Source: Hydrogenobacter thermophilus TK-6 (GTDB lineage Bacteria > Aquificota > Aquificia > Aquificales > Aquificaceae). Taken from it: DNA of 64,000 nt. A program made the position numbers and the translations under genes. The stretch lies in the NCBI RefSeq assembly GCF_000010785.1, contig NC_013799.1, positions 124,001 through 188,000 of the forward strand, given 5' to 3'. The notes beneath the pieces are model-generated. The model was not told the DNA's origin. It searched no databases and saw only the letters and a program-made list of their open reading frames with translations. The number at the start of each line of letters is the position of its first letter. Position 1 is the first letter of the stretch. Positions 21,296-40,664 of the stretch are shown here, piece after piece.

Positions 21296-21708
21296 GCTTT
21301 TATGAAGTTATAGAAGACATCACAGCGGATGCTGGTGTGCGGGTAAGGGCAAAAACCCTTGAAGAGCTAATATGTAAAGCTATACTTGCCACCTTCAATG
21401 AAATGACGGATATAGACACAGTAGAAAGCAGAGAAAGTTATATCCTTGAAGTGCACGCTAATTTTCCCTATTTACTGGTAGATATAATAAATGAAGCTAT
21501 AGTTTTGCACGAAACTAAAAAGTTTGTAGCTTCCAAGTGTCATGTGCTGGAGCTTTCAGAGAAGCACATAAAAGTTAAACTCATGGGAGATAAGTTTGAT
21601 CCCGAAAAGAACGAATCTAAGTTGGTCATAAAAGCGGCAACCTACCACAGACTAAAGGTGGAAAAAACCTCAGAGGGATACATGGCGGAGGTGATCTTTG
21701 ATATTTAA
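21292..21708 (+). CDS. Archease
   Basis: The 138-residue protein matches the archease family: an N-terminal EVIEDITADAGVRVRAKTLEELI block, a central PYLLVDIINEAI, and the C-terminal KAATYHRLKVEK motif before a terminal EVIFDI. Archease activates the RNA ligase RtcB, normally used in tRNA splicing or RNA repair. No rtcB gene is in the window. The stop overlaps the stop of the antisense PIWI-like gene (TTAA at 21705-21708). Confidence 0.85.
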   Translation: MSFYEVIEDITADAGVRVRAKTLEELICKAILATFNEMTDIDTVESRESYILEVHANFPYLLVDIINEAIVLHETKKFVASKCHVLELSEKHIKVKLMGDKFDPEKNESKLVIKAATYHRLKVEKTSEGYMAEVIFDI

Positions 21709-24047
21709 CCTAAGTTCTTATCCGCTGGAATTTTGCTTATGAGGTATATCATCTCATAAAGTACTGCGTTCAGAGGTATCTGGTACTCTCCTTGATTCCT
21801 CCTGATTTTCAGATAAAGACTTTTGCGCTTTTGCCAAAGGTCCAGCTTGCTATAGGGAGATTGAAAAGATTCGCTCTCATACTGAGATAGAGCCAGAAGG
21901 GTAAAAAGAAATAGATTTCTACGCTCCGAATAAACATCATCCCTCTCCCATCCCAGACCATCGGTAGAAAACACCTGAAGCGAAGAGTGATAGAAAAATT
22001 CCCCATCATCTAATCTAAACCTACTCTCATCTTTAATATCAGCTGGCTTTATAGCTAAGCTAACCTTATTACTCTCTTTGCTAATTCCTAAGCTTTCCTT
22101 TAGCTTCTCAAACTCGCTGGTGTATATAACAAAACAATCTTCTTGAGCCTTGTCGGATATGTATGCGGTTGGAAGCTCAGAATACTCTACAAATAAACTT
22201 TTGGACTTTATATTACTGCTCTCTCCGGATTTACTTATTATCTCATTCATGTAAGAGTCTTCCCAAGCACCTGCGGTTATAAAGCAGAACTTAGTCTCCC
22301 CATCTTTCGCTTTTTCCTCTATCCACCTTCTGAACTTGTCAGCCTCAAAGTCCAAGCCACCCGTGAGGACAAGGTATTTATCCTCCAATTCCACCGTTGC
22401 CCTATTTCCATTCACACTGATCTTGTATATCTCATAAAGGAAGTGCCTGTAAGCTTTCTGAGTAGGATCTCCCCTTCTGTAGCAAAATCCTGTAGAAGGT
22501 TTTTCAAGAACGGCAAAAACATTCAGTTGGGTTGGGAGATTGAATCCTTCAAACTCAAACTCCAAAGTCTTTAAATCCTTCAAAAGGCTAATGAATAGGT
22601 TTTTATATACGCCTTGCACCTCTTTTTCCTTTATCTTCCCTTCAGAAAAACCACAGAAAAGATTTATAGTAGTCTTATTTAGCGTTTGCACAGGCAAGCT
22701 AAAAAACTCGTAAATGAAGTTAAAAGCATCCCAGAAAGAATAACCTCCGCCATCTTCTCTTATATCCGTATCAAGCAAGAGTAAAATGCCCACAGGATTC
22801 TTATTTTGCATAACATCAACGAAACCCTTCAACCTGCAGTTGAAATACGCAAGGTTAAACAGAAGTTCAAAAGAGTCCTGGTGCAGAAGGTTTGAGAAGT
22901 TCATGTTCTTCAATTTATCAAAGTCCGGTATCAACCCATCTATTGGGAGTGATCTTTCAATTTTGATGCCTATGTTGCCTGTGAATCTGCTAAACGCTTT
23001 AGCAGACTTCTCCAAGCCTTCTTTGAACTTTTCAACTTTACTCTCTACACCTTTCTCATAAAAAATATAAAGACTTATCTCCTTATTGGGAACTCTGAAA
23101 CTGCCGTAGCTGACCCAACCTTCCTCACGCATCTGTTTTTTCACAAAGCTACCTATAGCCTTCTTTTCTTCTCCTTTAATAATATCCTTCAATAGCTCCT
23201 TCCAATCTTGGCGAAGCTTCCTCAGGAATTTTTCATTAAAAGCCTTTTCCAATACCTTTTTAAGCTCCTCTTCTGTGATACCTTCCTTTTTAAAAGCATA
23301 CAGAAGATCCTCCCAGATAACTTTTTCCTGCTTTAGCTCTTCTATAAGGTCTTCAGCTTTTGTTTTCCTCTCAAAAAGCCTTGCTCTGCTTACCAAATAC
23401 GCATCTTCAAAAATCTTGAAATCAAAGGGTGCAAGATAACTAAACAGCTTAAAAATGGAAGGTTTTTTAAAATCCTCGGGTGCAAGATAGGTTTTTATTA
23501 TATACCCTATCTGTGCAACTTTTGAAAGATACTCCTTTATCTCCCCATCTTCTGTTTTATTTTTCCATATGTCTATAAGATCTTCTCTACCTTTCCATAC
23601 ACTCTCCTTGGTAATATCTTCCCCTTGAGCTTCCAAGATTCTCAAGAAAGCAAGTCCAGAACTTTTTTCTATTTGGCTGGCAATTGACACAACACCTTCC
23701 GCAAGACGGAATATCTTATCCTTCCTGAACCTTTCAAAAACAGCCTCTCTTTCCTTTCTGAAAAGCTCCCGAGGTTTTAACCATATTACTCTGTCCTTCT
23801 TATAGATAGCTTCTCCTTGCAGAGAAAAATCTACCTTTTCCAAAAATTCCTTAAACATCTTTTTGCATTCTTCCAGTTTGTCTTTTTTCTTTATAATCTT
23901 GTATAGAAGTTTTGAAAGACTCTCTGCGTAATTTTCATCACCACACCAAAAGACACCGCCATACAGAAAGCCATTCTCAGAAACTCGCAAGCCTTTCGCA
24001 AAGTATTCCATACAACTAGGCGTTTCCTTACCCCTTATCTCCACCAT
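21705..24047 (-). CDS. Candidate MID-PIWI (Argonaute-like) protein with degenerate active site
   Basis: I do not recognise this 780-residue protein with certainty. The first 310 residues are helical and highly charged. From about residue 318 the pattern resembles an Argonaute MID-PIWI half: FRVPNKEISLYIFYEKG and a Rossmann-like GILLLLDTD (420-428). YSFWDAFNFIYEFFSLPVQTL (436-456) looks like the MID helix followed by the 'gip.Q' strand. A helical YKNLFISLLK and strand LNVFAVLEK (508-516) come next, and a C-terminal helix (761-773) follows QIPLN. The first catalytic Asp position would be Glu515 and no RDG-type motif is visible, so slicing is unlikely. Its start overlaps the helicase stop by 20 bp. 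A relation to the pPIWI-RE family is possible but unproven; a CRISPR Cas8-like protein is an alternative. Confidence 0.45.
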   Translation of the reverse strand: MVEIRGKETPSCMEYFAKGLRVSENGFLYGGVFWCGDENYAESLSKLLYKIIKKKDKLEECKKMFKEFLEKVDFSLQGEAIYKKDRVIWLKPRELFRKEREAVFERFRKDKIFRLAEGVVSIASQIEKSSGLAFLRILEAQGEDITKESVWKGREDLIDIWKNKTEDGEIKEYLSKVAQIGYIIKTYLAPEDFKKPSIFKLFSYLAPFDFKIFEDAYLVSRARLFERKTKAEDLIEELKQEKVIWEDLLYAFKKEGITEEELKKVLEKAFNEKFLRKLRQDWKELLKDIIKGEEKKAIGSFVKKQMREEGWVSYGSFRVPNKEISLYIFYEKGVESKVEKFKEGLEKSAKAFSRFTGNIGIKIERSLPIDGLIPDFDKLKNMNFSNLLHQDSFELLFNLAYFNCRLKGFVDVMQNKNPVGILLLLDTDIREDGGGYSFWDAFNFIYEFFSLPVQTLNKTTINLFCGFSEGKIKEKEVQGVYKNLFISLLKDLKTLEFEFEGFNLPTQLNVFAVLEKPSTGFCYRRGDPTQKAYRHFLYEIYKISVNGNRATVELEDKYLVLTGGLDFEADKFRRWIEEKAKDGETKFCFITAGAWEDSYMNEIISKSGESSNIKSKSLFVEYSELPTAYISDKAQEDCFVIYTSEFEKLKESLGISKESNKVSLAIKPADIKDESRFRLDDGEFFYHSSLQVFSTDGLGWERDDVYSERRNLFLFTLLALSQYESESFQSPYSKLDLWQKRKSLYLKIRRNQGEYQIPLNAVLYEMIYLISKIPADKNLG

Positions 24048-27000
24048 TCCTCTCCTCCAGAAGGTACTTTATAAATTCTATAGGAAATTTAACAAACCTT
24101 CCACTCAAAACCTCTTTATAAGGATACTCCTCTCCTAAAGGTATACAAGCATACTCCCTATCTTGCTCTCCGTTAAAGCAGTAAGTTCTTGGTTTCTCGC
24201 TTCCCAGCAGAGTTTCCGCCTTCCCCCTTCCTATACGCTTATCAATAGTAAACCCAAGCAATTCATTGATTTTTAAGAAGTGCTTAACCAAAACAATTGA
24301 ATAAATGGGTACCAAAACAGGCAGTGCGCTCTCTTGGACTGGTAGGAAGCTATTTATTATTTCTTCAATATCCTCGGTTTTTTCTGGATTATGCTCTTCT
24401 AATTTTTCTTTTACCTTATAAAAAAGACTTTTTGCCCGACCTCTGCTTTCGTTATCAAATCCAAACCTTACCCTTTGGTTGTTGAAGAGTATATAAGGAT
24501 GATAATACTCCATCTCTTTATCAAAGCTTATATCTACAACTGAGACATAAAGAGCTTCGGTTAGCACTTCTATGAGAATTAGTATATTTTTCTTTATCTC
24601 ATCATCCTTCTCTAATTCCAATATGTCATTCAGAAAACTAAGGCATCCTTCTATTTCTGATATCTTGTTGGGAATGTATACGCTTTTATACTGCTCGCCC
24701 AAAGGCACCAATACTTTGCTTTTTTCTTCTGGAGTTTTTATAAACTGGGTTATTATCTGAGTAATGACATCATCAAGGTAGATTTTTTCTCGTAGATTTA
24801 TCTTTTCGTTAAGAAGTCTAATAAGGTCCTTATGTATAGTATCTTCTTCAAGGTAGGCGATGTTTTCATTTTTTGTTGGATAAACTAAGTAGATGAGGTG
24901 TATGGTCTTGGGCTCTGATTCTGTTTTTTTGTCTCCTCTTGCTCTGGATACGGCTTGTATTAGCTCTACCATATTCTTTTCAATCCCCCAATCGTATATG
25001 ACTGTGTATATGTGATTTACAGGCTTGTGTGGTCTTGATAGGTCTATGCCTCTTGATATAGCGGATGTGGAGAGTATGATATCTTGATTACCTTCGTTTA
25101 TTTCCCTTTGGCTTCTTTTGGAATTGGCAGTGGCTACCATAGAGCTAAAGCCTTTTCCTTCTAAGAGTTCTCTAAGACGAGCTATATGTCCTCTGTTCTG
25201 GACAAATACTAAAGCTGTGCTTTCTTCTTTGTAATTTTTGAAGGTTTTTTCTATATACTCTGCGATTTTTTTATTTATAAGCTCATCTTCTGGTTTTTTC
25301 TTTAATTTCACTTCTTCCTCTGACAAAAATATAAACTTCTTTACCAGATTTATCCGAGGGGAGGGATATCCGTGCTTTGCGCTAACATAAACTTTTATAT
25401 CTCTTTCTTTAAAAACATTTCCAGAACTGTATTCGCAAAGTATAGTAGCATCTGGCATAACCTGAAACTCTTTGTACTCTTCCAAAAGTTTTTCCAAAAG
25501 TGGCGGTGCAAAGCCGTTGGCATCAAAAAGGTAAAGATTGACTCTGCCTCCTTCTTTTTTTACATAATTCAGAATTTTGAAAAACTCTTCTATCGCAAAC
25601 AGTCCGTTGTTGTGTCCAAAAAACTCATCAAGTATAAAGTGAAAAGTGTATTGATTTATTATCCTTTTACTGAGTAGCTCTTTTAAGTATTCTGCTGTGC
25701 TATCTTTATAAAGAGTTCCTACTATAGCTTGCTGTGTAGCAAAAGCCCATATAAAGTTGTGATCTTTTGTAGTTAATTCTCTTATTTTCTCTACTGTTTT
25801 TTTAAGTATGCCTGCATTATCTTTGGGCAAGTCCTTATAGGTATCTCCAATGTTTCTAACCCATTCATTGTCTTTTTTGGCGCTTTTCTCATAAACTATC
25901 TCTATTTTATATTGATCTTTGAGTTTTCTTAGTTCTTTTTGCTCTCTATCCAGGAGTATCTTCCTGGTTGCCATATAAAGGATTATGTGTTTTCCTTCCA
26001 TCTGAAGAATCTTTTTCCTTGTTTGGGTGGTTTTTCCGCTTCCTGCTGAGTGAAACAGACATACTGCCTTTACTGGGTCAGGGTCCATAAAAAACCTGTC
26101 AAGGACTTTACTCACATGCTCCCTTGAGGCATATATGCTATCTGGAGATAATACAGTTTCTTGTTTTTCTCTAACTTTTATCTGTTGTTTTAAGTTTTCT
26201 ATCTCCTTTGGTATCTCTTCCCTTAATCTTTCTATTCTCGCAAGAGATGGGCTCTCTACCTGCTTATATTCTAATTCCAGTCGTCTTATCCTGTCATATA
26301 GGCTGATAATTTTTTCCCTGTATTGACTGAGGTCCTCCCCTCTCAGGTAAAATCTCGCTATAAAGGGTTCCGCAAGCGGGTAGAGTAAGGATAAACACAC
26401 CTCCTTTATGTCTTCTGGTTTCTCTTTGTGCAGGTAATCTACTGCATAAGAGACCACCTGCAGAAAGCCCTTTAGCTCAGGTGAGGCTTCTTGCAAAGAA
26501 AGCAATTCATCTTCCAGCAGAGTTAAGCTTTTCAAAAAGCCCTCAAAGGTTAGCTCACCCAGAGCTAAATTCACAGGAAGTCCGTAGTTCCTAAATGGTA
26601 TAGCTACCTTTTGTTGGGTTATTTGTTTGGTTATTATATCGGTAAGCTGGGAACGAACTCCGCTTAGCTTAAAGTCAGCCACATAGAGAGTTTTGTTGCT
26701 CTTAAAAATCAGGTCCGCATTGTAGTATACACCTGCCTGTGAGCTTTCTTCACCTATGGTATACTTGATTAGCTCTAAGTCTCCAAAGCTCAGCCCATAA
26801 AAGTATCCTTCATAGTAGCCTACCAGAAACACAAAGAGTAAATGAGTTTTATGATCATCTTGCAGGCCAAGCTCTCTTAACTCCTCTGGCTGTTCAACTT
26901 TTGGATCAAAGGGAATGTTTCTTTCAAGAAGCTCCCAGATGTATTCAAGCTCTTGAAAGTGTTCATGTATAAACTCCTGCTTTAGTTTTTCAAACACCTG

Positions 27001-27105
27001 CCTTTCCTTAAACTGCTGATAGTCCTCTATACGATCTTTTAAAAAACCAAGCTTAAAAGCCCCCTCAAAGGCAAACCCCAAAAACTGGACAAACTTGTTT
27101 GCCAT
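24028..27105 (-). CDS. PD-(D/E)xK-type nuclease fused to an SF2 helicase, probable defence protein
   Basis: The 1025-residue protein has a helical N-terminus and a nuclease-like strand pair, ADLIFKSNKTLYVADFK (residues 130-146), giving Asp131, Asp144 and Lys146. A coiled coil follows (about 265-315). The helicase core has Walker A SAGSGKTT (353-360), motif Ia YMATRKILLD, motif II LDEFFGH (492-498) in place of DEAD/DEAH, QDIILSTSAISRGIDLS as motif V and QAVSRARGD (717-725) as motif VI. The last 280 residues are unassigned. It is first in the two-gene unit. No convincing ribosome-binding site is seen. The unit is AT-richer than its neighbours, a sign of possible transfer. Confidence 0.7.
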   Translation of the reverse strand: MANKFVQFLGFAFEGAFKLGFLKDRIEDYQQFKERQVFEKLKQEFIHEHFQELEYIWELLERNIPFDPKVEQPEELRELGLQDDHKTHLLFVFLVGYYEGYFYGLSFGDLELIKYTIGEESSQAGVYYNADLIFKSNKTLYVADFKLSGVRSQLTDIITKQITQQKVAIPFRNYGLPVNLALGELTFEGFLKSLTLLEDELLSLQEASPELKGFLQVVSYAVDYLHKEKPEDIKEVCLSLLYPLAEPFIARFYLRGEDLSQYREKIISLYDRIRRLELEYKQVESPSLARIERLREEIPKEIENLKQQIKVREKQETVLSPDSIYASREHVSKVLDRFFMDPDPVKAVCLFHSAGSGKTTQTRKKILQMEGKHIILYMATRKILLDREQKELRKLKDQYKIEIVYEKSAKKDNEWVRNIGDTYKDLPKDNAGILKKTVEKIRELTTKDHNFIWAFATQQAIVGTLYKDSTAEYLKELLSKRIINQYTFHFILDEFFGHNNGLFAIEEFFKILNYVKKEGGRVNLYLFDANGFAPPLLEKLLEEYKEFQVMPDATILCEYSSGNVFKERDIKVYVSAKHGYPSPRINLVKKFIFLSEEEVKLKKKPEDELINKKIAEYIEKTFKNYKEESTALVFVQNRGHIARLRELLEGKGFSSMVATANSKRSQREINEGNQDIILSTSAISRGIDLSRPHKPVNHIYTVIYDWGIEKNMVELIQAVSRARGDKKTESEPKTIHLIYLVYPTKNENIAYLEEDTIHKDLIRLLNEKINLREKIYLDDVITQIITQFIKTPEEKSKVLVPLGEQYKSVYIPNKISEIEGCLSFLNDILELEKDDEIKKNILILIEVLTEALYVSVVDISFDKEMEYYHPYILFNNQRVRFGFDNESRGRAKSLFYKVKEKLEEHNPEKTEDIEEIINSFLPVQESALPVLVPIYSIVLVKHFLKINELLGFTIDKRIGRGKAETLLGSEKPRTYCFNGEQDREYACIPLGEEYPYKEVLSGRFVKFPIEFIKYLLEERNGGDKG

Positions 27106-27192: not shown

Positions 27193-27942
27193 CTAAATAG
27201 CCTGCCAGGTTGCAGAAACTTGCCCGCAATAAGGAGAAAGTCTTACCACCTGACCTACCACCATAACAGCAGGAGGGTTTACCTCAGGTGGGTCGTTGGC
27301 AAGCTCATAAAGGTCTGTTATCACCACCCTCTGCTCCCTGGTGGTGCCTCTCTCTATAAACGCCACAGGCTCCTTTGGGTCCCTACCCACCTCTATGAGC
27401 CTCCTGGCTATCTCCTTCCTGTTGGAAACCGCCATCAGAAAGACTAAGGTATTTATACCTTTCAGGCTCTCCCAGTCTACGCTTGAGCTTCCCTTCTTTG
27501 GGTCTTCGTGCCCTGTGATGACTGCGAAGGAAGAAGATAATCTTCTAAAGGTTATGGGTATGCCCGCATACGCAGGCACCCCTGTGGCTGAGCTTATACC
27601 TGGCACAACCTCCACCTCCACCCCGTGCTGAGCCAAAAAGAGAGCCTCCTCACTACCCCTTCCAAAGACAAAGGGGTCTCCACCCTTTAGCCTTACCACA
27701 ACCTCTTTTGTGTGAGCATAGTGGAGCAAAAGCTCGTTAATCTTCTCCTGCTCTATGGTGTGCTTTCCCTCCTCTTTTCCCACATAGATGAGTTGGCATT
27801 CTGGTTTAGCCAGTAGAAGGATCTCTGGATTTACCAGTCTGTCGTAAAGCACCACATCCGCAGATTTTATAAGTCTGTAAGCTTTTAGGGTTAAAAGCTC
27901 CGGATCTCCAGGTCCCGCACCTACTATGTACACTTTACCCAT
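27193..27942 (-). CDS. nirE: Uroporphyrinogen-III C-methyltransferase (NirE/CobA)
   Basis: The 249-residue enzyme adds methyl groups at C2 and C7 of uroporphyrinogen III to give precorrin-2, the entry to d1-heme, siroheme and cobalamin. The N-terminal VYIVGAGPGDPELLTLKAYRLI and the VVRLKGGDPFVFGRGSEE block are SUMT signatures. VEVVPGISSATGVPAYAGIP follows. There is no fused uroporphyrinogen synthase or Met8 domain. Being last in the nirS-nirN-V4R-nirJ-nirF cluster with an 8-bp overlap to nirF, it most likely serves d1-heme synthesis. Confidence 0.9.
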   Translation of the reverse strand: MGKVYIVGAGPGDPELLTLKAYRLIKSADVVLYDRLVNPEILLLAKPECQLIYVGKEEGKHTIEQEKINELLLHYAHTKEVVVRLKGGDPFVFGRGSEEALFLAQHGVEVEVVPGISSATGVPAYAGIPITFRRLSSSFAVITGHEDPKKGSSSVDWESLKGINTLVFLMAVSNRKEIARRLIEVGRDPKEPVAFIERGTTREQRVVITDLYELANDPPEVNPPAVMVVGQVVRLSPYCGQVSATWQAI

Positions 27943-28990
27943 GATGGTTCCTCCTTATCAAAAATACCCCGGAGGGGTGTGGTATATTAAGCTCATACAA
28001 AAGCTTCAAATCCGGTACTTGAAAGGCTCTGAGCTTGGAATCAAAGTAAGAAGAAACATACAGTCTCGTGCCATCCTGGGAGAAGCGAAGATGCATGATC
28101 CTCTGACCCAGCTTTAACTCCTTCAGAACCTTCATCTCTTTTACATCTACGAGAGCCAGGTAATCCTCTCTATCTCCGCTGAAGTTTACTGCTAAGTAAT
28201 TGCCGTTGGGAGAAACAGAGGCAAAAACAGGAAGACCTCCAAGCTCCACATGACCCAAAATCTCCATCTTCCTGAGATCCACCTTGTATAGTCTTTTTTC
28301 ACCTACAGCAGGAATAAAAGCCTCATCACCTACAATCCCCCATGTGCCAAAGTGAGGTATCTTAAAAACGACCTCCTTCCCCTGTGCCTTAAAATCCAGC
28401 TTCCTGTAAAGCTTGTTTTTTATGTCTATCATGCCTATGCCCGACTCCTTGAAAAAGCCAAGAAGGTATATGTCTCCACTCAGGAGGGCATCAAAGGGCA
28501 TATTTCCCACCTTAAACTTCCTAATTTCTTGCCTCTCCACGACCCAAACTTCGTCCTTGTCCATCAGAGAGAAGACAAAGCCACCTTCAAAGCCCTTAAT
28601 CCCCACATTCCTTGACCCCGTTTTTAGTGTTTTTAAGATGTTCAGCTCTTCATCCAGCACCACAACCGTATGGGGATCATAATTAGCAACAACTATGTGG
28701 TTGTCAGTAAAGTCCAGACCGATAGTGCTGTTTCCCACCTTCACCCTTTTTAAAAGCTTGTCTTCCTTCGGGTCTATCTTGGACAGATACCCATCCCTGC
28801 TTATCACATAGGCATAACCCTCCCATACTTTTACCGTTGCATGACTGAGGTTCCCCAAACCTTCTATCTCTTTGACCACTTTACCTTCCTCCACCACCGC
28901 CAGACTTCCCCTTTCTCTCTCCACAACATAGAGCTTTTCCGCAATGGAAAGGAAGGGCAAAATCAGTATGAAAAGCATTACAAGTAGCAT
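27935..28990 (-). CDS. nirF: d1-heme biosynthesis protein NirF
   Basis: The 351-residue protein starts with a signal-like hydrophobic segment (LLVMLFILILPFLSIAE) and continues as a beta-propeller of the cytochrome cd1 d1-domain type, without a CxxCH motif. That combination, in this gene cluster, identifies NirF, which acts in the periplasm in a late step of d1-heme synthesis. YLAVNFSGDREDYLALVDVKE and RLYVSSYFDSKLRAF are propeller blades. It overlaps nirJ by 13 bp. Confidence 0.88.
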   Translation of the reverse strand: MLLVMLFILILPFLSIAEKLYVVERERGSLAVVEEGKVVKEIEGLGNLSHATVKVWEGYAYVISRDGYLSKIDPKEDKLLKRVKVGNSTIGLDFTDNHIVVANYDPHTVVVLDEELNILKTLKTGSRNVGIKGFEGGFVFSLMDKDEVWVVERQEIRKFKVGNMPFDALLSGDIYLLGFFKESGIGMIDIKNKLYRKLDFKAQGKEVVFKIPHFGTWGIVGDEAFIPAVGEKRLYKVDLRKMEILGHVELGGLPVFASVSPNGNYLAVNFSGDREDYLALVDVKEMKVLKELKLGQRIMHLRFSQDGTRLYVSSYFDSKLRAFQVPDLKLLYELNIPHPSGVFLIRRNHHG

Positions 28991-30060
28991 GCTGGGTCCT
29001 CCTCTGTGTAATCCCCAAAAACTGCGTAAGCCCTCGCCCTTGAGTTCCCGTTGCAGATACTTACAAAACCACAGTTAGAACACTTACCTTTGAGCTTCCT
29101 TGGTTTCTCTCTGAGAAAACCCAAAAGACCGTTACCCTGCCAGATTTTTACTATGTCTTCTTCTTTTACATTACCAACGCTATGAAAGAAAAAGGGATCT
29201 GGCTTTACATTCCCTCTGTGGTCTATATTCATGAGCTTAACGCCTGCCTGATTTCCTCCCCACTTCAGAAGCCTTTCATAAAGCTTGTCTGCAAGCTCTG
29301 GATGCCTTCTTGCAAACTCCCTGTATAAAAGTACAGCATCCGCTTCGTTGTTGCCCGTCACTACGTCTATGGGTAGCCCTCTCTCCACATACTCAAAGGC
29401 TTTATGGACTATAAACTCTACCCACCTTCTGTAGTCCTTCTTCTCAAGGTGGGAGAGCTTCCTGCCTCTGCCTGCGTAGACGAGGTGGGATATGTATACC
29501 TTAGGTATTCCTTCTTTCTCCGCAAGTTCAAAGACAAAGGGAAGACTTTCAGCAGTTATGGGAGTAAGGGTAAACCTGAGACCTACCTTTATACCCTCCT
29601 TTAAACACATCCTTATAGCTTCTAAAGAAGTTTCAAAGGCTCCCCTTTTGCCCCTGAAGAGGTCATGTACCTCTTGTTTTCCGTCAATGCTTATGCCCAC
29701 ATAATCAAAGCACTCCTTGATCTCTTTCAAATGTTCCTTAACCAGAATTCCGTTGGTGGAAAGGTATGTCCTTATGCCCCTCTCCTTTAAAAGTCTGGCT
29801 ATATGGAAGAGGTCCTCCCTTAAAAGTGGCTCACCTCCTGAAAGGATGGTAAACTTCACACCAGCTTCTGGCAGTCTGTGGACAAGGCTTATCGCTTCTT
29901 CGTAGCTTAGCTCCTCTTTATCCTTGTTGGCGGAAGAGTAGCAGTGTTTGCAGTGGAGGTTGCATGCATTGGTCAGGTTCCATATGAGTATCACACCTTC
30001 AAAAGCTTTTGGCTTTTTGCCCTCAAGAGTATTCCTTATGTACTCCGTCATCCTAAGCAT
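28978..30060 (-). CDS. nirJ: Radical SAM d1-heme biosynthesis protein NirJ
   Basis: The 360-residue protein has the radical SAM cluster motif CNLHCKHC (near residue 33), GGEPLLRED, and a C-terminal auxiliary-cluster region (CSNCGFVSICNG, then DPACYL). NirJ removes two propionate side chains and installs the keto oxygens in d1-heme. The cluster context supports NirJ over related heme (AhbC/AhbD) or peptide-modifying enzymes. It overlaps the V4R gene by 8 bp. Confidence 0.85.
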   Translation of the reverse strand: MLRMTEYIRNTLEGKKPKAFEGVILIWNLTNACNLHCKHCYSSANKDKEELSYEEAISLVHRLPEAGVKFTILSGGEPLLREDLFHIARLLKERGIRTYLSTNGILVKEHLKEIKECFDYVGISIDGKQEVHDLFRGKRGAFETSLEAIRMCLKEGIKVGLRFTLTPITAESLPFVFELAEKEGIPKVYISHLVYAGRGRKLSHLEKKDYRRWVEFIVHKAFEYVERGLPIDVVTGNNEADAVLLYREFARRHPELADKLYERLLKWGGNQAGVKLMNIDHRGNVKPDPFFFHSVGNVKEEDIVKIWQGNGLLGFLREKPRKLKGKCSNCGFVSICNGNSRARAYAVFGDYTEEDPACYL

Positions 30061-30541
30061 AGTTCATCTCCACCACCACTTCGCATATACCGTCCCCATG
30101 AGCGTTGCACTTGGTTTCGTAAGCTCTTACCTTATTACCCGTATGGGCTTCAACTATGCCTGCTACAAAACCTGCTTCAAAGTGGCATATGCGTTTTCCT
30201 ATGTTGGGCATACCTGCGCATGTAATACACTCATCAAGAGCGACTACTAAACTGCCTTCCTTCAAATCAACAGGTATTAAAAGCCCTATCTTTGCATCCT
30301 TCACAAAGTCTATGACTTTACCTATGTATCTATCAAGGCTACTGTCCTGGAGCCTTTCTCCAACCTCTTTTCCGAGTTCCCTTCCTGCATTCTGTATGAG
30401 GGCTGTTGCTCCCTTGTGCCCCAGAACATCTTCAAGGTACATGCCTGTAAAGACCCTGAAGGCTCTGAAAACGAGAAGTGGCACATCTTCACCCAGGTGA
30501 GGTCTTCTCACCTGCGACAGCGTCTCAATCCATCCAGCCAT
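30053..30541 (-). CDS. V4R (4-vinyl reductase-like) domain protein in the nir cluster
   Basis: The 162-residue protein has a helical N-terminal half, then a V4R-type domain: LDECITCAGMPNIGKRICHFEAGFVAGIVEAHTG and ETKCNAHGDGICEVVVE. The conserved cysteines (CITC, RIC, TKC, GIC) may bind a metal. V4R domains occur in bacteriochlorophyll 4-vinyl reductase and in sensors of hydrophobic ligands. It sits between the nirN-like gene and nirJ with overlaps on both sides (17 and 8 bp), so a role in d1-heme synthesis or delivery is inferred. It is not one of the usual nir genes. Confidence 0.75.
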   Translation of the reverse strand: MAGWIETLSQVRRPHLGEDVPLLVFRAFRVFTGMYLEDVLGHKGATALIQNAGRELGKEVGERLQDSSLDRYIGKVIDFVKDAKIGLLIPVDLKEGSLVVALDECITCAGMPNIGKRICHFEAGFVAGIVEAHTGNKVRAYETKCNAHGDGICEVVVEMNYA

Positions 30542-32147
30542 CTTTTAATGCCTCCATAAATTTCATCAGGGCTTTCAGTTCCCCCTCCTTCAGTTCTATT
30601 CTGGGCATGGCATTCCTGCTGTATCCCAAAAGCCTGTAAGTATTTTCTGGGTTAAGTATCTGAGCTATTACGAGTGCTTTTTCTCTGTTTTGAATAGACC
30701 ACCTGAGGGAAGGACCAAAGGCGTTCTCCGTGGTGTGATGACAGCCCCAGCACTTCTCCATAAAAACCTGATAACCGAGCTGAGCCCCCTCAAAGTACCT
30801 GCTTTTGTTTACAAAGTTATACTTACCTGCGGGAAGGTTTGCAGGAAACTCTCCAAGCTTTTTCAGGCTCACCCCGTCGTAAAGCATCAGAGCGCCTTCC
30901 TTTTCGTACACGCTTACATAAGCTATCCTGCCATCGCCTGTGAATTCAGCATGCGTTACCCTCTTGCCCGGCGCAGGTATGAACTTTTTAACTTCAAGGC
31001 TCCTCTTGTCCAGCAAAAGCATGCTGTCTGTTGACATGTCCACCCACACATAAGGTGTCCCGTAAGAGCTCCTTGCCAGAAAGCCATTGCCGTCAAGGGG
31101 AATGTCCTTCACATGCTCCCACGAGTATGCCTTCCAAACAGAAAGCACAGGCTTATTAAGGAGGGGTGTGGCAAAGTAAAAATCACCCTTTGAGTACCAG
31201 AAGTAGGCGGAAGCCAGGTGAGGAATATCAAGAGCTTTAAGCTCCTTCACCAGTCTCAGGTCGTTGAGAGAGTATATCTCTAAGCCACTCCTTGTGCTTC
31301 CTATAAGATACTCCTCAAGGGGATCTATGATGAAGTCCTCTAGCGCTACCCCTAAGTTTTCATACGTAAGCTTCAGGTCTTTATAGTTCAAAAAGCCTAC
31401 AAGAGGTTTATCTTTAAAGGTGAAGATAAAACCATCACGAATGTAAAGCTCGTAAACTGCGTTTATTCTACCATGCAATTCAAAGCTCTTTACATAATTC
31501 AGCTGACTGTCAAAAACCACCAGCCGTGAGGGAACCCAGCAGGAGGCTACAAGAAGACCACCGTAAAAGGCTATGTTCCTCAAGTATATACAGGCTCTTA
31601 CCCTCTTTAGCTCACCTTTTGTAGGGTCGTACCTCCCTATCCACCCATCCCGTGAGGGTATGTATGCCACACCCTCCTTTGAGAACTTTATACCACCATG
31701 CATGCTGGAAAAGGCAAATTTGTCCAGAAGCCTTTCCCCCTCCATAACCCATACGAGATTTTTACCCCTTTCAACTACAAGGGTGTAATCTTTCAAGTTT
31801 TTAACTTCCACCTTCTTTGTATAAACCCTTTCTACACTACCCTTTATCCTCTCCTCGTCCCACCTTAGCTTTTCCTTCTCAACGGGACTTTTTATGAATT
31901 CCACTATCTGTTTTACTTCCTCCTCTTTTAGCTCTTTAAAGGAGGGCATACCCACAGCACCCTCCCTTATTATTCTGTAAAGCCTTTCTTCTGGTATATT
32001 AAAAAAGGGAGGGAAAAGGGGAGGTGCGTGTCCTCCAAGCCTGTCTTCTCCGTGGCAGGAGGAGCAGTATTTAAGATACAGCTCCGCCCCTCCCCCAAAG
32101 GAGAGGGAGCAGAGCAGAGGGAGTAGTAGAAGGTTTTTTAACTTCAT
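30525..32147 (-). CDS. nirN: NirN-like cytochrome with d1-type propeller and a second, C-terminal cytochrome c
   Basis: The 540-residue protein has a signal peptide and an N-terminal cytochrome c domain (CSSCHG near residue 28, axial Met in VGMPSF). A d1-type beta-propeller (about 130-440) follows, then an additional cytochrome c domain (CWGCHH near residue 469, with AMPRIE). Standard NirN has one c domain plus the propeller and dehydrogenates dihydro-d1 to d1; NirC is a separate small cytochrome c. This looks like NirN with a NirC-like tail. It starts as TGATG on the nirS stop and overlaps the V4R gene. Confidence 0.82.
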   Translation of the reverse strand: MKLKNLLLLPLLCSLSFGGGAELYLKYCSSCHGEDRLGGHAPPLFPPFFNIPEERLYRIIREGAVGMPSFKELKEEEVKQIVEFIKSPVEKEKLRWDEERIKGSVERVYTKKVEVKNLKDYTLVVERGKNLVWVMEGERLLDKFAFSSMHGGIKFSKEGVAYIPSRDGWIGRYDPTKGELKRVRACIYLRNIAFYGGLLVASCWVPSRLVVFDSQLNYVKSFELHGRINAVYELYIRDGFIFTFKDKPLVGFLNYKDLKLTYENLGVALEDFIIDPLEEYLIGSTRSGLEIYSLNDLRLVKELKALDIPHLASAYFWYSKGDFYFATPLLNKPVLSVWKAYSWEHVKDIPLDGNGFLARSSYGTPYVWVDMSTDSMLLLDKRSLEVKKFIPAPGKRVTHAEFTGDGRIAYVSVYEKEGALMLYDGVSLKKLGEFPANLPAGKYNFVNKSRYFEGAQLGYQVFMEKCWGCHHTTENAFGPSLRWSIQNREKALVIAQILNPENTYRLLGYSRNAMPRIELKEGELKALMKFMEALKDGWMD

Positions 32148-33802
32148 CAGTATATGTCCTTCATGGTGTTGTAAACATTGAAGTGTCCGGTAGGTGTTGC
32201 CACCCAGTTGCCCGTTATGGCTTTCTTGAGGGTAAGCGTTTTATCGTCATAAACGAGTATAGCCTGTTTTTCTGGCTCGTTCTTCTTACTCCAAACTGCT
32301 ACCCACACCTCATCTCCGTTCTTGTTATACTCAAGGTGCACAGCCCTTCCCTGAAACTCAGGTGGTATCTCTATTACCTTTTTAATCTGGAAGGTGTTTT
32401 TGTCAAAGACAAAGAGGGACCTCTGGAGTTTGGGGTCGTTGTTTAAAGCTCTGTCAGCCCAGAGGTGAGGGGACTTGGGATGGGTCTTTATAAAGAGGTT
32501 CCCTCCACCCTCACCGGGCATCTCCATCTTTACAACCACCTTCCATGCGTACTGAGGATGCTTTACGGGGTCTGTGCCTATGCACCGGATGGTGTTATCT
32601 CCCAAGTGTCCAGTACACCATAGAGGTCCGTACTTGGGATGGTCTATGTTGGCTCCCCTTCCAGGGTGGGGTCTTGTACCCACCTTTATGTTTTTTACCA
32701 GCTTCTTCTCCTTTGTATCCACAACGGATATGGTGTCTCTGAAGTTGGCAGCCACTAGGAAGTACCTTTTGGAAGCATCCCATCCTCCGTCATGGAGAAA
32801 TCTCTCAGCATCTATCATGGTTATCTTGGGTGCGTGTATGTTAGAGTAGTCTACAAGCCATATCTGACCTGCCTCTTTGACATTTACCACCCACTCGGGG
32901 TCGTAGTGAGAGGCTACTATTGAAGCTACCCTAGCTTCTCTGAGAAACTCGTTGGTATCGTAAGTGTAGGCACTGGTGGCAACTATCTTGAGCGGTTCAA
33001 GGGTCTGCCCATCCACTATGACAAAAGAAGGAGGCCAGTAGCATCCTATGATGGCAAGCTTGTCAAGGAAGTCTCCCTTTGGTCCTTTGTACTTGGATGT
33101 GTCAAGAGACCTTCCATCGTAGCAGGTCTTTACTTCAGCAACCTTATCAGGCTTTTTCATCCAGAGGTCAATGAGGACAACTTTGCCATCCCTACCTATG
33201 GTGTAGAGATACCTTCCCGATGCGGAATATCTGGCTATGTGGACAGCATAACCTGTATCCACTGTGCTCACAAGCTCCTTAGTATCTCCATCAATTATCG
33301 CAACCTTACCTATGTCCCTGAGTATGACTGCCATGAAGTTCTGCCAGTTTCTGTTGTGCTCGGGTTTTTGGGGTCTTTTTTCGGGCGGAACATATACCTT
33401 CCAGGACTTTTTCATCTCACCTAAGGGCAGTTCAGGGGGTGGGGGTGGGTCGTGCTGTATGTACCTTGCCATCAGGTCCACCTCTTCAGGCGTCAGTATA
33501 CCCTGCCTTCCCCAGTCGGGCATACCACCGGGTGTACCGTAAGTGATGAAGGTCTTGAGCGTCTCTGTCCCCAGCTTTCTCGTTTTATCCGGTGTGAGAG
33601 CAGGTCCTGTAGCTCCCTTCCTGAGGGCACCGTGGCATCCCGCACACCTGTCAAAGTAGATCTCCTTAGCCCTTTCCATCTCCTGTTTGGTTAGAGGTGG
33701 GGGAGGCGGAAGCTCCTCCTTCTGCTGTTGCTGTGCATAGGTACCTGCAAAAAGGACAAAAACTAAAGCTCCACCTATGAGCACCTTTTTCCTCTTTCTC
33801 AT
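32147..33802 (-). CDS. nirS: Cytochrome cd1 nitrite reductase (NirS)
   Basis: The 551-residue periplasmic enzyme reduces nitrite to NO. It has a signal peptide (ending near TYAQQQQ), a cytochrome c domain with CAGCHG (near residue 55), a Pro-rich linker and the eight-bladed d1 propeller. The d1 proximal His region (HIARYSASGRYLYTIGRDG) and both active-site His regions (RPHPGRGA and CTGHLGDN) are intact. The ATG follows a GGAGG site. A consensus promoter lies directly upstream and overlaps the SCO1 stop. It leads the operon nirS-nirN-V4R-nirJ-nirF-nirE. Confidence 0.97.
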   Translation of the reverse strand: MRKRKKVLIGGALVFVLFAGTYAQQQQKEELPPPPPLTKQEMERAKEIYFDRCAGCHGALRKGATGPALTPDKTRKLGTETLKTFITYGTPGGMPDWGRQGILTPEEVDLMARYIQHDPPPPPELPLGEMKKSWKVYVPPEKRPQKPEHNRNWQNFMAVILRDIGKVAIIDGDTKELVSTVDTGYAVHIARYSASGRYLYTIGRDGKVVLIDLWMKKPDKVAEVKTCYDGRSLDTSKYKGPKGDFLDKLAIIGCYWPPSFVIVDGQTLEPLKIVATSAYTYDTNEFLREARVASIVASHYDPEWVVNVKEAGQIWLVDYSNIHAPKITMIDAERFLHDGGWDASKRYFLVAANFRDTISVVDTKEKKLVKNIKVGTRPHPGRGANIDHPKYGPLWCTGHLGDNTIRCIGTDPVKHPQYAWKVVVKMEMPGEGGGNLFIKTHPKSPHLWADRALNNDPKLQRSLFVFDKNTFQIKKVIEIPPEFQGRAVHLEYNKNGDEVWVAVWSKKNEPEKQAILVYDDKTLTLKKAITGNWVATPTGHFNVYNTMKDIY

Positions 33803-33844
33803 GTCCTACCTCCTTTATGAAATAAATCACTGACATAGATTATA

Positions 33845-33873
33845 ATTATAAGTAAACACTTACCACATGTCAA
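33845..33873 (-). promoter_or_regulatory. Perfect consensus promoter of nirS (TTGACA-N17-TATAAT)
   Basis: On the minus strand TTGACA (33873-33868) and TATAAT (33850-33845) are separated by exactly 17 bp. The -35 box overlaps the last codons of the SCO1 gene. Such a perfect core would be constitutively strong, so a repressor is likely to be needed. Confidence 0.75.
33849..33862. promoter_or_regulatory. Putative operator TAAGTAAACACTTA in the nirS promoter spacer
   Basis: A perfect inverted repeat (TAAGT-N4-ACTTA) overlaps the end of the -10 box and fills the spacer of the nirS promoter. It matches 12 of 14 bases with each of two other sites, at 38261 and 38383. The position implies repression. 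Confidence 0.55.
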
Positions 33874-34610
33874 GATTTTTTTACTATAAAATCATGTAAA
33901 CTTTTGTAGGCAGACTTCCCCCACACTAAGGCAGGGACAACAAGAAAAGTCAGAAGACCGCCCATCACATCAAAGACGAAGAACCAGTCAATCTGGTAAT
34001 CGCCTCTATCGGGGTCGTATCTGAAGCACCTCAAAAAGAAACCCTCAACCGGTGAGAGTTTTGAGCTTTCTCTCTTTGCTTCAAGCACGGACAGCTTTAT
34101 GTCCCTTACCTTTGGATTCACACCGTATATGTATCTGGATATCTTTCCGGAGGGTGTTATGACCACATAGATGTTTGGATGTTCAAACTCTTCAAGACTT
34201 TTATCGTACCTGTATCGGAAGTCTATAGATTTCAGTAAGCTGTCCACCTGCTCACTTTTTGCCACCACCCAGTTCTCCGGCAGGCTCTGATGCCGGGCAA
34301 ACCTCTTCAGGTCTTCTATGCTGTCCCTTGGGTCAAAGCTAAGGGATATAACCTTTACATCATTCATTAAATCCTTTATAGCTCTTTTGAGACCCTCTGT
34401 CATCAGAGGACATGCGGAGCTACACCTGGTGTATATGGGATTGATGATAATTACCTTACCCCCCGCAAATTCCTTTATCCTCAAGACTTCACCCGTATGT
34501 ATCTCCAAAGGTATGTCAGGTATGTAAGTGCCTATGCTCTTCTTCTCGTCCGGCAGAAAGCTTCCGAAGGCAGTACATACTATAATCAGAAGACTAATAA
34601 GCTTTAGCAT
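33870..34610 (-). CDS. SCO1/SenC family copper chaperone
   Basis: The 246-residue protein has an N-terminal signal anchor (LKLISLLIIVCTAFG), a thioredoxin-like fold with the copper motif CSSAC and the distal His in FEHPNIYV, then a C-terminal membrane helix (VFDVMGGLLTFLVVPALVW). SCO proteins deliver copper to CuA centres. It closes the operon that encodes a CuA subunit, so CuA assembly is the likely job. I start at the ATG at 34610, which overlaps the previous gene by 17 bp; a start at 34667 would lie deeper within it. Confidence 0.88.
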   Translation of the reverse strand: MLKLISLLIIVCTAFGSFLPDEKKSIGTYIPDIPLEIHTGEVLRIKEFAGGKVIIINPIYTRCSSACPLMTEGLKRAIKDLMNDVKVISLSFDPRDSIEDLKRFARHQSLPENWVVAKSEQVDSLLKSIDFRYRYDKSLEEFEHPNIYVVITPSGKISRYIYGVNPKVRDIKLSVLEAKRESSKLSPVEGFFLRCFRYDPDRGDYQIDWFFVFDVMGGLLTFLVVPALVWGKSAYKSLHDFIVKKS

Positions 34611-35862
34611 GTTTATAAATACTGAGCAGGGACTGCCCTGCGTAAAGAATAAAGAGGAGACCTCCAAGGACTGCCATAAGACTTCCCAGCCCTGCTATGT
34701 TCAGTGCGATGAGCACTTTCGTATTCATAACATACTCAAAACCGTAAGTCTTTCTTGGCGCTCCCATTCTTCCTGCCATATAAAAGCCAAGCACCAGAAG
34801 GTTTATACCCATGCTGAGAACTACCGGCTGGAGTTTTGCGACCCTTTCCCAGCATATGTATCCGAGCCTCTCCTTTAATATACTGTAGCCAAGACCCATA
34901 AAAGCTATGCTTACCGCAGACACAACCCCGTGATAGTGAGCCGGCACTCTCAGGTCGCTCTGCATGCCTGCATAAGCCACCACCACCCCAGCATAATAAA
35001 CGCTTACAGAGGACAGCAAAGCTAAGCTGGGGACATCTGCACTTAGCCTGATGTTTTTTAGTACATAGTAAGTGTGGATAAGCACTGGCACACCTGTCCC
35101 AAGCCCGAAGGACATGACTGTTAGAAGTCTAAACTCCCGTGAAAAGATATCGGTAAAGAAGCCTGCCATCAGCAAAGATGGGAAGACAAGGAGGAGAAAG
35201 TTTACCGTGCTCAGAAGAGGGGAAGAGACCTCCTTTCCGTTGCCCCTCTTTAAAAGCTCGTGCCAGACGGCCAGCATCACCGAGGCATAAAGAAACTGCT
35301 GAAGATGCCCCGGAATCCAGAAGAGCCTCTCAAAGTAAAGCTTTTGCCCACCTTCCGCATTTGCTATGAAGAAGGAGGGGATTAACGAAAGAAGTGTGGC
35401 AAGCCCCAGTGCCACGGACATGGCATAAAGCTGGGGTATGTTTTCAAAGGAGGTTATTTCCTTGAGCTTTTTGACCCTGCTGAGAGCTTCAAAGAAGAAG
35501 GCAAGGAAGAAGACAAAAAGCCCAGCATAGAAGATTGGACTATCAATAACCGGGATATAATTGTTCAGGTAAGGTTCACCGTAAGGTAAAAGGCAGGAAA
35601 GGGAAAGAAGAAGCATACCCAGTAGGGTGGCTGGAGGTGCAACTCTTCCCTTCCTGCCTTCCTTATAGTGCCAGTAGGCGAGAGTAAAGGTCATGAGCCA
35701 TACAGTTATGGAGAAGGTTACATGTCCAACAAGAAAGTGGTAAAAGAGGCTCGGGGACTTCAAGAGAGAAAAAGCGGGCGCGCGCGTTAGAGCTATGAGA
35801 AGTCCAAAAACTCCAGCCTGAACAAGAGACAGAAGGGAGAGGGAGAGGTAGAAGAGGCGCAT
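34594..35862 (-). CDS. Second haem-copper oxidase subunit I-like membrane protein
   Basis: The 422-residue protein has about 12 membrane helices and a reduced set of haem-copper motifs: His47 in FLVGHVTF, His186 in WIPGHLQQ (where oxidases have GHPEVY), His263 in LIHTYYV (a second His of the CuB pair is missing) and His309/His311 in AHYHG. The cross-linked Tyr is absent. It starts as TGATG on the stop of the preceding subunit I gene, so the two are translationally coupled. It could be an NO reductase-like subunit, a partner carrying only haem, or a separate enzyme. No matching entry is known to me. Confidence 0.6.
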   Translation of the reverse strand: MRLFYLSLSLLSLVQAGVFGLLIALTRAPAFSLLKSPSLFYHFLVGHVTFSITVWLMTFTLAYWHYKEGRKGRVAPPATLLGMLLLSLSCLLPYGEPYLNNYIPVIDSPIFYAGLFVFFLAFFFEALSRVKKLKEITSFENIPQLYAMSVALGLATLLSLIPSFFIANAEGGQKLYFERLFWIPGHLQQFLYASVMLAVWHELLKRGNGKEVSSPLLSTVNFLLLVFPSLLMAGFFTDIFSREFRLLTVMSFGLGTGVPVLIHTYYVLKNIRLSADVPSLALLSSVSVYYAGVVVAYAGMQSDLRVPAHYHGVVSAVSIAFMGLGYSILKERLGYICWERVAKLQPVVLSMGINLLVLGFYMAGRMGAPRKTYGFEYVMNTKVLIALNIAGLGSLMAVLGGLLFILYAGQSLLSIYKHAKAY

Positions 35863-37529
35863 CACTTTACCTCCCACATGGCTGCGAGCCAACCCCAGTT
35901 TAGAAGCAGGAACACGAGGAACACACCCATAAAAAGGAGAGTGAGGGTTAAAGTTCCCGGTGCTTCAAAGCCGTGATGCTCTTTAGCGGGAGGCGGTGGT
36001 GATGCGATCTGCAGTTGCATGTCCTGAGGACCCCTGACAGGCTGTCCCAAGAAGACGGAAAAGACCACTATAAGTATCCACATCAAAGCACCTATAACTG
36101 CGGTTATTCCACCTATGGCAAAGAGAACCCAGAAGAAGTCAACCGCAGGGTTAAAGGTGTAAGTGAAGGGACCTCCGGAGAAGGTTATGTCGTAATGCCT
36201 TCTTGGAACACCGAAGGCTCCAAGGATGTACATGGAAACAGCCAAGACAGCTATGCCGAGCCCAAAGACCCAGGGCTGTGCCTTGGCAAGCCCAAAGAAA
36301 GCAATCTTCTTCCTGAATATGAGAGGTATCAGGTAGTAGGTAGCTCCCATGAAAGCGAGAGTAGTTCCACCTACAACAGTACCCTTAAAGTGTCCGGGTA
36401 TGGAAAGTGTGTTGTGGACTATGATGTTAGTCTGCTCCATGCCGTTGACCACACCTGTGACACCACCTATGAAGCCAAAGATGATTATGGAGAGGAATAC
36501 TGCGGAAAAGGCGGGATTGCCCCAGGGTGCGTTCTTAAGCCAGTCAAAGAGTCCTTTGGTAAAGCCTCTCCTCCTTTGGGCGGATTCTACTGCAGAAGGT
36601 ACTGCGAAAGCATGTATCATAGAAGCAAGGACTGCTATGTACATGATGTAGCTGGTGTTAAACACCTTCCACGCGGGACTGGGTCCAGGGTCAACAAGAA
36701 GGTGGTGAGCGGAAGCTACATTTATACCTATCACGTAAAACACAAAGGCAAATCTGCTCACCTTCTCGTTTATGGACGCACCGCCTACCGTTAAGAAGGC
36801 TCCCAGATACCACACAGCTATCATAGCGGTCACATTTATCTGCTGGGAGGAGTGTCCAAGACCCCACCATACGAGTTTATAAACCCCCGCATCTATGCTC
36901 TTTATGATGCCCAAAGACCAGAGGAGTGTAGGTATGTATATGATGGCACCTGTTGCGAGGGTAAGGGTGGCTATTATAGCCGCAGCTACAAGACCAAATG
37001 TGAAAAGGGGTAAGGAATCACCGTAAGTCCTCTCCTTTCTGGCTATGAGCAGGTTGGCAAAGAAGAGAAAGACGCCTATCAAGGCACCTACCGCAAAGAG
37101 AATTATGCCAAGGTAGTAAATAGGGCTTGCCTGGAGTGGAGCGTAGGAGGTCATGAGCACATCCGCACTGCCGGTAAGAATGGTGTAGTTAACCAGCAAA
37201 AAGCCAAGAACCATAAGGATAAAGGCAAGCCAGCCAAACTTGGGAGAGGACATACGGGAGTTTAGAACGACGGTGGAACCAAAGTAAAGACCCGCAACCT
37301 CAAAGAAGATTATCCAGAATATGAGAGCGTTAAGACCGTGAAGGGTAAGGATTCGGTAGTACCACTCCACAGGCAGGAGGTGAACCACCTGCCACCTCGT
37401 GAGAACAAGAAGCAGAGCCGCTATGACACCTACTAGCAGAGAGACAACGGCCATGACTGCGTTTAGCTGTATAAGTCTCTCCGCCCTTAAATCCACCTTT
37501 AGACCCGTTATATCGCATGTTCTAAACAT
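35862..37529 (-). CDS. Haem-copper oxidase superfamily subunit I, candidate CuA-type NO reductase
   Basis: The 555-residue protein has about 13-14 membrane helices. Ligands seen are His64 (LTLHGLNAL, low-spin haem), His226 (GHSSQQ), His275-His276 (SAHHLLVD, CuB) and His380 (IPGHFKG, high-spin haem). The oxidase motif GHPEVY is GHSSQQ, so the catalytic Tyr is Gln230. The usual second His of GHFH, a low-spin haem ligand, is Lys382. Loss of the Tyr is typical of NO reductases of this superfamily. With nirS and nosZ adjacent and no cNor/qNor present, NO to N2O reduction is the best inference. An oxidase-like role is possible. Confidence 0.7.
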   Translation of the reverse strand: MFRTCDITGLKVDLRAERLIQLNAVMAVVSLLVGVIAALLLVLTRWQVVHLLPVEWYYRILTLHGLNALIFWIIFFEVAGLYFGSTVVLNSRMSSPKFGWLAFILMVLGFLLVNYTILTGSADVLMTSYAPLQASPIYYLGIILFAVGALIGVFLFFANLLIARKERTYGDSLPLFTFGLVAAAIIATLTLATGAIIYIPTLLWSLGIIKSIDAGVYKLVWWGLGHSSQQINVTAMIAVWYLGAFLTVGGASINEKVSRFAFVFYVIGINVASAHHLLVDPGPSPAWKVFNTSYIMYIAVLASMIHAFAVPSAVESAQRRRGFTKGLFDWLKNAPWGNPAFSAVFLSIIIFGFIGGVTGVVNGMEQTNIIVHNTLSIPGHFKGTVVGGTTLAFMGATYYLIPLIFRKKIAFFGLAKAQPWVFGLGIAVLAVSMYILGAFGVPRRHYDITFSGGPFTYTFNPAVDFFWVLFAIGGITAVIGALMWILIVVFSVFLGQPVRGPQDMQLQIASPPPPAKEHHGFEAPGTLTLTLLFMGVFLVFLLLNWGWLAAMWEVK

Positions 37530-37541
37530 GACCAGACCTCC

Positions 37542-38072: not shown

Positions 38073-38073
38073 C

Positions 38074-38247
38074 TCACTTACCTCCTAAAAGAGACTGTTT
38101 TAGTTCTGCGGGTATTGGCGAGAGCCACGCCAACTCTATGAGCCCCCATATGAGATAGGAGACCGCATAGATGGTAACTCCCAAAAAGAGCAGAAGCATA
38201 AAATCGTCCAACACCAGTTGAAGAAAGGGTGTCTTTCTTTCCTCCAT
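38074..38247 (-). CDS. 57-residue single-helix membrane subunit of the haem-copper enzyme
   Basis: This short ORF reads from the ATG at 38247, after an excellent ribosome-binding site (CGGAGGTG), to a TGA at 38074, two bases before the CuA gene start. It contains one hydrophobic helix (LLLFLGVTIYAVSYLIWGLIEL) and a polar C-terminus. Small single-helix subunits (such as subunit IIa of ba3 oxidase) are common in this superfamily. It is the first gene of the operon; its promoter and a putative operator lie just upstream. Confidence 0.7.
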   Translation of the reverse strand: MEERKTPFLQLVLDDFMLLLFLGVTIYAVSYLIWGLIELAWLSPIPAELKQSLLGGK

Positions 38248-38260
38248 AGTGGCACCTCCG

Positions 38261-38274
38261 TAAGGATTTACTTA
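38261..38274. promoter_or_regulatory. Putative operator (TAAG-N6-CTTA) in the leader of the CuA operon
   Basis: Read on the minus strand the 14 bp are TAAGTAAATCCTTA, a perfect 4-6-4 inverted repeat matching the nirS element at 12 of 14 bases. It begins right at the predicted transcription start (about 38275) and ends before the ribosome-binding site, a repressor-like position. Confidence 0.5.
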
Positions 38275-38281
38275 CTTGAAA

Positions 38282-38310: not shown

Positions 38311-38347
38311 GAATTAAATTTACCACAATATTAAGATAATTTAAAAT

Positions 38348-40663: not shown

Positions 40664-40664
40664 C

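Follow-up and report, generated by a model that had tools for sequence, protein, structure and literature searches.

A paired helicase-nuclease and a divergent Argonaute-like protein in Hydrogenobacter thermophilus: a candidate DNA interference system

Introduction

What is the role of two overlapping genes that form a low-GC insert beside the denitrification genes of the hot-spring bacterium Hydrogenobacter thermophilus TK-6? We studied them in a window of 64,000 nucleotides (NC_013799.1, positions 124,001 to 188,000 of the forward strand). All positions below are those of the window, and all features of the pair are on the minus strand. Gene A (24028..27105) encodes a fusion of a RecB-like nuclease and a superfamily 2 (SF2) helicase, 1025 residues long, identified from its open reading frame (ORF), Pfam, an AlphaFold2 model, Foldseek and hhalign. 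Gene B (21705..24047) encodes a divergent Argonaute-like protein of 780 residues, based on its ORF, an AlphaFold2 model, Foldseek and a PADLOC profile of prokaryotic Argonautes (pAgos) that matches its orthologs. A preliminary description, made from the sequence alone, had proposed two overlapping minus-strand genes here, and both ORFs are present where it placed them. Gene A is read first, then gene B, and according to the ORF coordinates they share 20 base pairs (bp) (24028..24047), an overlap that likely leads to translational coupling.

The pair is a real, conserved and horizontally moving two-gene system with a previously unrecognised Argonaute. With a probability of roughly 70% we consider it a compact nucleic-acid-guided interference system, in which an inactive, guide-binding B recruits the helicase-nuclease A onto invading DNA.

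Results

The fold of protein B

The AlphaFold2 model of B, obtained from 17 homologs, has a mean predicted local distance difference test score (pLDDT) of 83.1 and a predicted template modelling score (pTM) of 0.85. When it is compared with the PDB using Foldseek, 41 out of 43 matches with an expectation value (E) <=0.001 are named Argonaute or PIWI. The best match is RsAgo (6d8p, E 1.7e-9, probability 1.00), followed by 5awh (6.4e-9), and of the two other matches, one is a DNA-protein complex that carries no name (8jsi) and the other is unrelated. The earlier claim that B is MID- and PIWI-like is thereby borne out, as Argonaute/PIWI is the best match among all solved structures, and no CRISPR effector or other known family claims B.

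According to the model and Foldseek, residues 507-780 (21708..22529) form the PIWI domain, which is RNase H-like. It is preceded by a MID-like Rossmann segment at residues 395-500 (22548..22865), modelled with strand 419-424, helix 439-448, strand 453-456 and helix 474-488. The N-terminal half of the model, residues 1-330 (23058..24047), sits where long Argonautes have N, L1, PAZ and L2, an assignment made by position only.

Scans of the window protein with Pfam, NCBIfam and PADLOC gave no match above cut-off, and B is not detected by Pfam Piwi (PF02171). The PADLOC pAgo profile matches the B orthologs at locus L044 (7e-5, residues 314-495, a stretch that takes in the MID-like segment) and at L033 (0.0022), and so supports the assignment independently of the structure. 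In a scan of 136 genomes its matches are conventional pAgos for the most part, with the L044 ortholog (genome G001) in addition. Taken together, the prediction and the structure search support the view that B is a very divergent Argonaute with a MID and an RNase H-like PIWI fold.

The candidate guide pocket and the active site of protein B

The assignment of residues in the MID and PIWI regions relies on their spacing, on weak alignment and on the strands of the model, and is therefore provisional. The candidate glutamine for the 5' end of the guide is Q454 (22686..22688), which is invariant and is aligned to the P-x-Q of pAgos in a weak profile alignment. Fifteen residues before it the alignment has an invariant aromatic residue, W439 (22731..22733), and this spacing is that of Tyr and Gln in the Y-x3-K..Q of the MID of Aquificota pAgos. 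Y436 was also considered as the MID tyrosine and dropped, because W439 has the fitting spacing to Q454. In the same weak alignment N483 and K/R490 pair with an Asn and a Lys of pAgos, and K482 is invariant.

The canonical catalytic residues, the DEDX tetrad of active Argonautes, are lost in B. At the position of the first Asp, on strand 507-517 of the model, a glutamate (E515, 22503..22505) is invariant in all 16 sequences covering it, in agreement with the preliminary description. The absence of an RDG motif, also claimed there, holds in part: the acid at the second catalytic position is not conserved (D in ten, E in three and R/K in three of the 16), however most orthologs have a K/R-D-S/G-like stretch at the predicted end of strand 4. 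The likely last catalytic position is occupied by the invariant K734, within a YSKL that resembles the YSDK (Y-S/A-D-K) of pAgos. Since the first Asp is a Glu, the second acid is variable and the last residue is probably a Lys, B is probably a catalytically inactive Argonaute that would bind a guide.

Alternatively, B could be an active nuclease in which E515 and D597 form a working or altered site, and A would merely help in guide making or target processing. The strict invariance of E515 and the acid kept by many orthologs near the second position agree with such a site, but the R/K of three orthologs and the apparent Lys at the last position do not. We know of no active Argonaute with a Glu for the first Asp, and regard an active B as highly improbable.

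The nuclease and the helicase of protein A

Residues 1-256 of A (26338..27105) form a PD-(D/E)XK nuclease domain of the RecB/Cas4 type according to hhalign and the AlphaFold2 model (pLDDT 83.5, pTM 0.83). The domain was aligned with RecB/Cas4-like proteins (PF12705, PDDEXK_1) located in other Aquificota, with E-values of 2.9e-3 and 6e-4. The scores of 28.1 and 32.5 are higher than those of all 200 column shuffles made for each (maxima 20.3 and 20.1). The domain is below the Pfam thresholds for PF12705. In the alignment NADLIF...TLYVADFK of A is paired with GKLDFVF...TLYIVDHK, so that both catalytic positions align exactly.

All 15 sequences of the main clade keep the signature proposed earlier, D131, D144 and K146. 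The first catalytic acid, D131 (26713..26715), is invariant in 17 out of 17 sequences, while the DxK motif D144-F-K146 (26668..26676) is invariant in the 15 close members and reads E-L-T in the two others, L109 and L110. The QxxxY of the RecB family (Q216 and Y220, 26446..26460), which the earlier signature did not include, is invariant in all 17. In the model the acids are on adjacent strands (132-136 and 139-145) and QxxxY is on the next helix (209-228), i.e. the D...(D/E)xK...QxxxY motifs of A follow one another as the core fold of RecB/Cas4-type nucleases requires. These results support a RecB/Cas4-type nuclease at the N-terminus of A.

The SF2 helicase core comprises residues 324-735 (24901..26136). 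It is matched by Pfam Helicase_C (1.8e-7) and weakly by ResIII/DEAD, and Foldseek finds MrfA (3.3e-10), BLM/RecQ and UvrB for the model, which confirms the SF2 assignment of the preliminary description. The alignment shows Walker A HSAGSGKT (352-359, 26029..26052), motif II DEFF (493-496, 25618..25629) and motif VI QAVSRARG (717-724, 24934..24957) with Q717, R721 and R723 invariant. Motif II is indeed unusual, reading DEF[F/L] or DEL[T] across the family, with D493 and E494 invariant. The C-terminal residues 740-1025 (24031..24888) are a region of mixed alpha/beta secondary structure in the model, without a family match. A type I-D CRISPR Cas3' was also considered for A and rejected: TIGR03158 reaches 23.6 bits against a cut-off of 69.1 and covers the helicase motifs only. 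No cas genes are found beside the pair in the window.

Pairing, selection and spread

B was found in 22 out of 136 Aquificota genomes, and the pair in about 20. Pairing is obligate: in every intact or contig-complete Aquificota copy of B, gene A is directly before it. The between-genome distances of A and B are strongly correlated in a mirror-tree comparison (r = 0.977, Mantel p 2e-4), and the ratio of nonsynonymous to synonymous substitution rates is 0.10-0.21, i.e. the pair is under purifying selection. Because the two genes are co-inherited and selected in this way, the pattern of motifs in A and B is not due to chance.

The pair has also spread horizontally, including to another phylum. 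Its chromosomal site varies even within the genus, as it is elsewhere in G001, G003 and G004; in G002 and G003 archease is followed by dapA, unlike at the window locus. Candidatus Caldipriscus T1.2 (L049), which belongs to another phylum, carries an A about 90% and a B up to 65% identical to those of Aquificota, beside V-type ATPase genes. In this copy A is intact and B is broken with a run of N inside, either by transfer and decay or as an effect of the assembly. Decayed B copies are also present in G036 and G077. Searches for B in plasmids, phages and IMG/VR, and for A in plasmids and IMG/VR, gave no match. One genome with the divergent A-B pair has a second match to the pAgo profile (G016:C47:40301-40846, 4e-12).

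At one locus in G001 (L044:7989-16847) a type III-A csm operon with cas10, apparently complete, begins 12 bp downstream of the pair; this may be a functional link or chance. Is the pair then an accessory of type III CRISPR-Cas or, given the many copies between housekeeping genes, a housekeeping factor of DNA repair or competence, and not a stand-alone defence system? This CRISPR neighbour is the single one among the inspected loci, and a housekeeping role does not agree with the patchy presence, the decayed copies and the horizontal transfer. We therefore consider this explanation, in either form, very unlikely. At another locus (L037:1-6300) a type IIG restriction-modification protein and an AAA ATPase like NsnB/AriA are directly upstream of the pair, and this defence-like island also contains a small protein with weak matches to oligonucleotide cyclases.

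Distant relatives and the surrounding of the pair

Two Aquificota genomes (L109:8696-13817 and L110:6220-11241) have a more distant homolog of A with 915-916 residues (E about 1e-35), adjoining a protein of 754 or 790 residues. In both homologs the replacement of DxK by ELT removes the lysine of the nuclease. At L110 the gene order is reversed, and the partner is collinear with B over 369 columns with a score above all 60 shuffles. For the partner at L109 a relation to B is not shown, as 6 out of 60 shuffles reach its score. Long A-like proteins of 1161-1179 residues are present in three genomes of one genus (L111:8416-11898, L112:8616-12101, L113:1-1689). Their genes have no evident Argonaute-like partner adjacent, and two of the three genomes have a conventional pAgo elsewhere.

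In the window, the GC content is 0.374 for A and 0.385 for B, compared with 0.450 for the remainder, which makes the 5.4-kb pair a low-GC insert, in keeping with its horizontal spread. The insert is flanked by housekeeping genes. Upstream of the pair are cobA and denitrification genes, and at the opposite end B is convergent with an archease gene. According to the ORF lists, the region 27193-46400 contains the denitrification genes, i.e. a cobA/cysG-like methyltransferase, heme d1 synthesis, cytochromes, and ORFs like nitric oxide and nitrous oxide reductases.

Discussion

A proposed guided helicase-nuclease

The mechanism we propose is taken over from two known systems, DdmDE and ApsAB. For DdmDE it is established that a guided Argonaute finds invading DNA and recruits a helicase-nuclease, which unwinds and degrades it (PMC12409362), and the same mechanism has been proposed for ApsAB (PMC11096173). 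By analogy, B would bind a short guide and locate complementary invading DNA. It would then recruit A, whose SF2 helicase brings its own RecB/Cas4-type nuclease, and A would load on the opened DNA, unwind it or translocate along it, and degrade it. The likeliest targets would be plasmids or phage genomes, and the purpose presumably defence. A coherent interference module had been suggested in the preliminary description, and it is supported by the Argonaute fold, the nuclease-helicase and the pairing; what that description did not name are DdmDE and ApsAB, the closest systems.

Recognition of a target by B could instead unleash unspecific DNA degradation by A, so that the cell dies. Abortive infection of this kind is reported for inactive long-B pAgos that have nucleases as partners (PMC10620215), and RsAgo, the best structural match of B, is a long-B pAgo. 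However, B is paired with a helicase-nuclease of the processive kind also used by DdmDE and ApsAB, and killing is not reported for ApsAB (PMC11096173). Abortive infection is therefore unlikely in our view.

Several observations weigh against a guided interference system built on an Argonaute. Against complete Argonautes B has low TM-scores (0.24-0.30, normalised by query length). Such values would follow from another placement of the lobes, and they indicate that the domain arrangement of B differs. The hhalign comparison of the B profile with Aquificota pAgos is not significant (E 0.51 and 0.27), and for this reason the Argonaute claim rests on structure and one PADLOC profile. In the MID pocket N, S or R stands four residues after the aromatic, where a Lys would be expected. 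The DxK lysine is absent from the two most distant relatives of A. Finally, most copies of the pair stand alone among housekeeping genes, outside defence islands. The expectation of co-conservation near other defence genes was thus correct in part: the pair is kept together and has one CRISPR and one restriction neighbour, but the majority of copies have none.

From DdmDE and ApsAB it is known that plasmids can be attacked by a helicase-nuclease under the direction of a dead Argonaute. If guided interference by A and B is true, the nuclease at the opposite end and an Argonaute missed by the libraries would point to repeated origin or repeated rearrangement of this design. How the guides are chosen would become testable in another lineage, and the heat-stable proteins could serve structural work and programmable DNA degradation. 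B also points to further hidden Argonautes of this kind, missed by standard family libraries.

Comparison with known systems

The preliminary description had considered a compact relative of pPIWI-RE, which likewise combines the functions of a PIWI protein, a helicase and a restriction-type nuclease (PMC3702460). The pPIWI-RE systems have three genes, a DinG-type helicase with Fe-S (iron-sulphur) cysteines and a conserved R and E, none of which is found in A and B. The pPIWI-RE profiles of Pfam match none of the 17 B proteins; PF13032 has no match in any Aquificota genome scanned, but the positive controls also gave none. In PsPIWI-RE the signature is R639 and E718 of the beta-sheet extension, next to D525, whereas B has no invariant Arg near 114 residues after E515, and its invariant R750 and E765 are 15 residues apart. 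In A, residues 350 to 556 include no Cys, and the nuclease is in the same protein, not in a separate gene. Without a PF13032 match and DinG-type cysteines, and with the R/E signature misplaced, membership in pPIWI-RE was rejected.

With RecB/Cas4-type nucleases (PF12705), A shares the order and spacing of D...DxK...QxxxY at its N-terminus, but it has no Fe-S cysteine cluster and is fused to an SF2 helicase. B resembles the long-B pAgos, e.g. RsAgo (PMC6299218), in its structure, which matches theirs best, and its probably inactive PIWI. It differs from them by being missed by PF02171, by its MID pocket and by being the obligate partner of one nuclease-helicase family. The gene neighbours of pAgos include nucleases, among them PD-(D/E)XK proteins that also carry DEAD-box helicase domains (Ryazansky et al., PMC6299218). 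As these had been noted before, the theme is not new, only this variant of it.

DdmDE, the plasmid defence of Vibrio cholerae, is similar in having two genes, an SF2 helicase with a PD-(D/E)XK nuclease, an inactive Argonaute and horizontal spread. The nuclease of DdmD is C-terminal, after an N-terminal SF2 helicase (PMC12409362), while that of A is N-terminal. No DdmD or DdmE chain is among the PDB sequence matches or the 50 best structural matches of A or B. ApsAB, the antiplasmid system of E. coli ST38, also consists of a helicase-nuclease and an Argonaute-like protein, and B likewise has an invariant Gln and invariant lysines in its MID. ApsA is much longer (active-site K1435), again with a C-terminal nuclease. 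The MID motif of ApsB, Y-x3-K-xn-QG-xn-K (PMC11096173), is not present in B, which has W439-x3-N/S/R and Q454-T455, with the Q and the downstream K kept. Because of the N-terminal nuclease, the absence of the ApsB motif and the absence of DdmD and DdmE from the best matches, we did not file the pair under either system.

Could the pair still be a divergent true member of the DdmDE/ApsAB family, with common ancestry of both genes and a nuclease moved from the C- to the N-terminus by domain shuffling? It has the same two-part logic, and ApsA and DdmD are reported to belong to a single broad family whose two Argonaute partners look unrelated (PMC11096173). The distant relative at L110 also has a P-x-Q-G in its MID-like segment, as in the Y-x3-K-xn-QG of ApsB. 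On the other hand, the nuclease is at the other end of A, and neither the 50 best structural matches nor the A profile searched against PDB sequences lead to DdmD. We consider such kinship less likely than not. A more far-reaching reading, which we hold to be slightly less likely than not, places A and B in a third class of DNA interference by a helicase-nuclease and an inactive Argonaute, assembled independently of DdmDE and ApsAB. Such a class would have an N-terminal RecB/Cas4-like nuclease and an Argonaute lineage of its own that diverged deeply, and be centred on Aquificota and extended by the cousins at L109 and L110. As DdmDE and ApsAB precede it, the general idea is already known, and it is the variant that is new.

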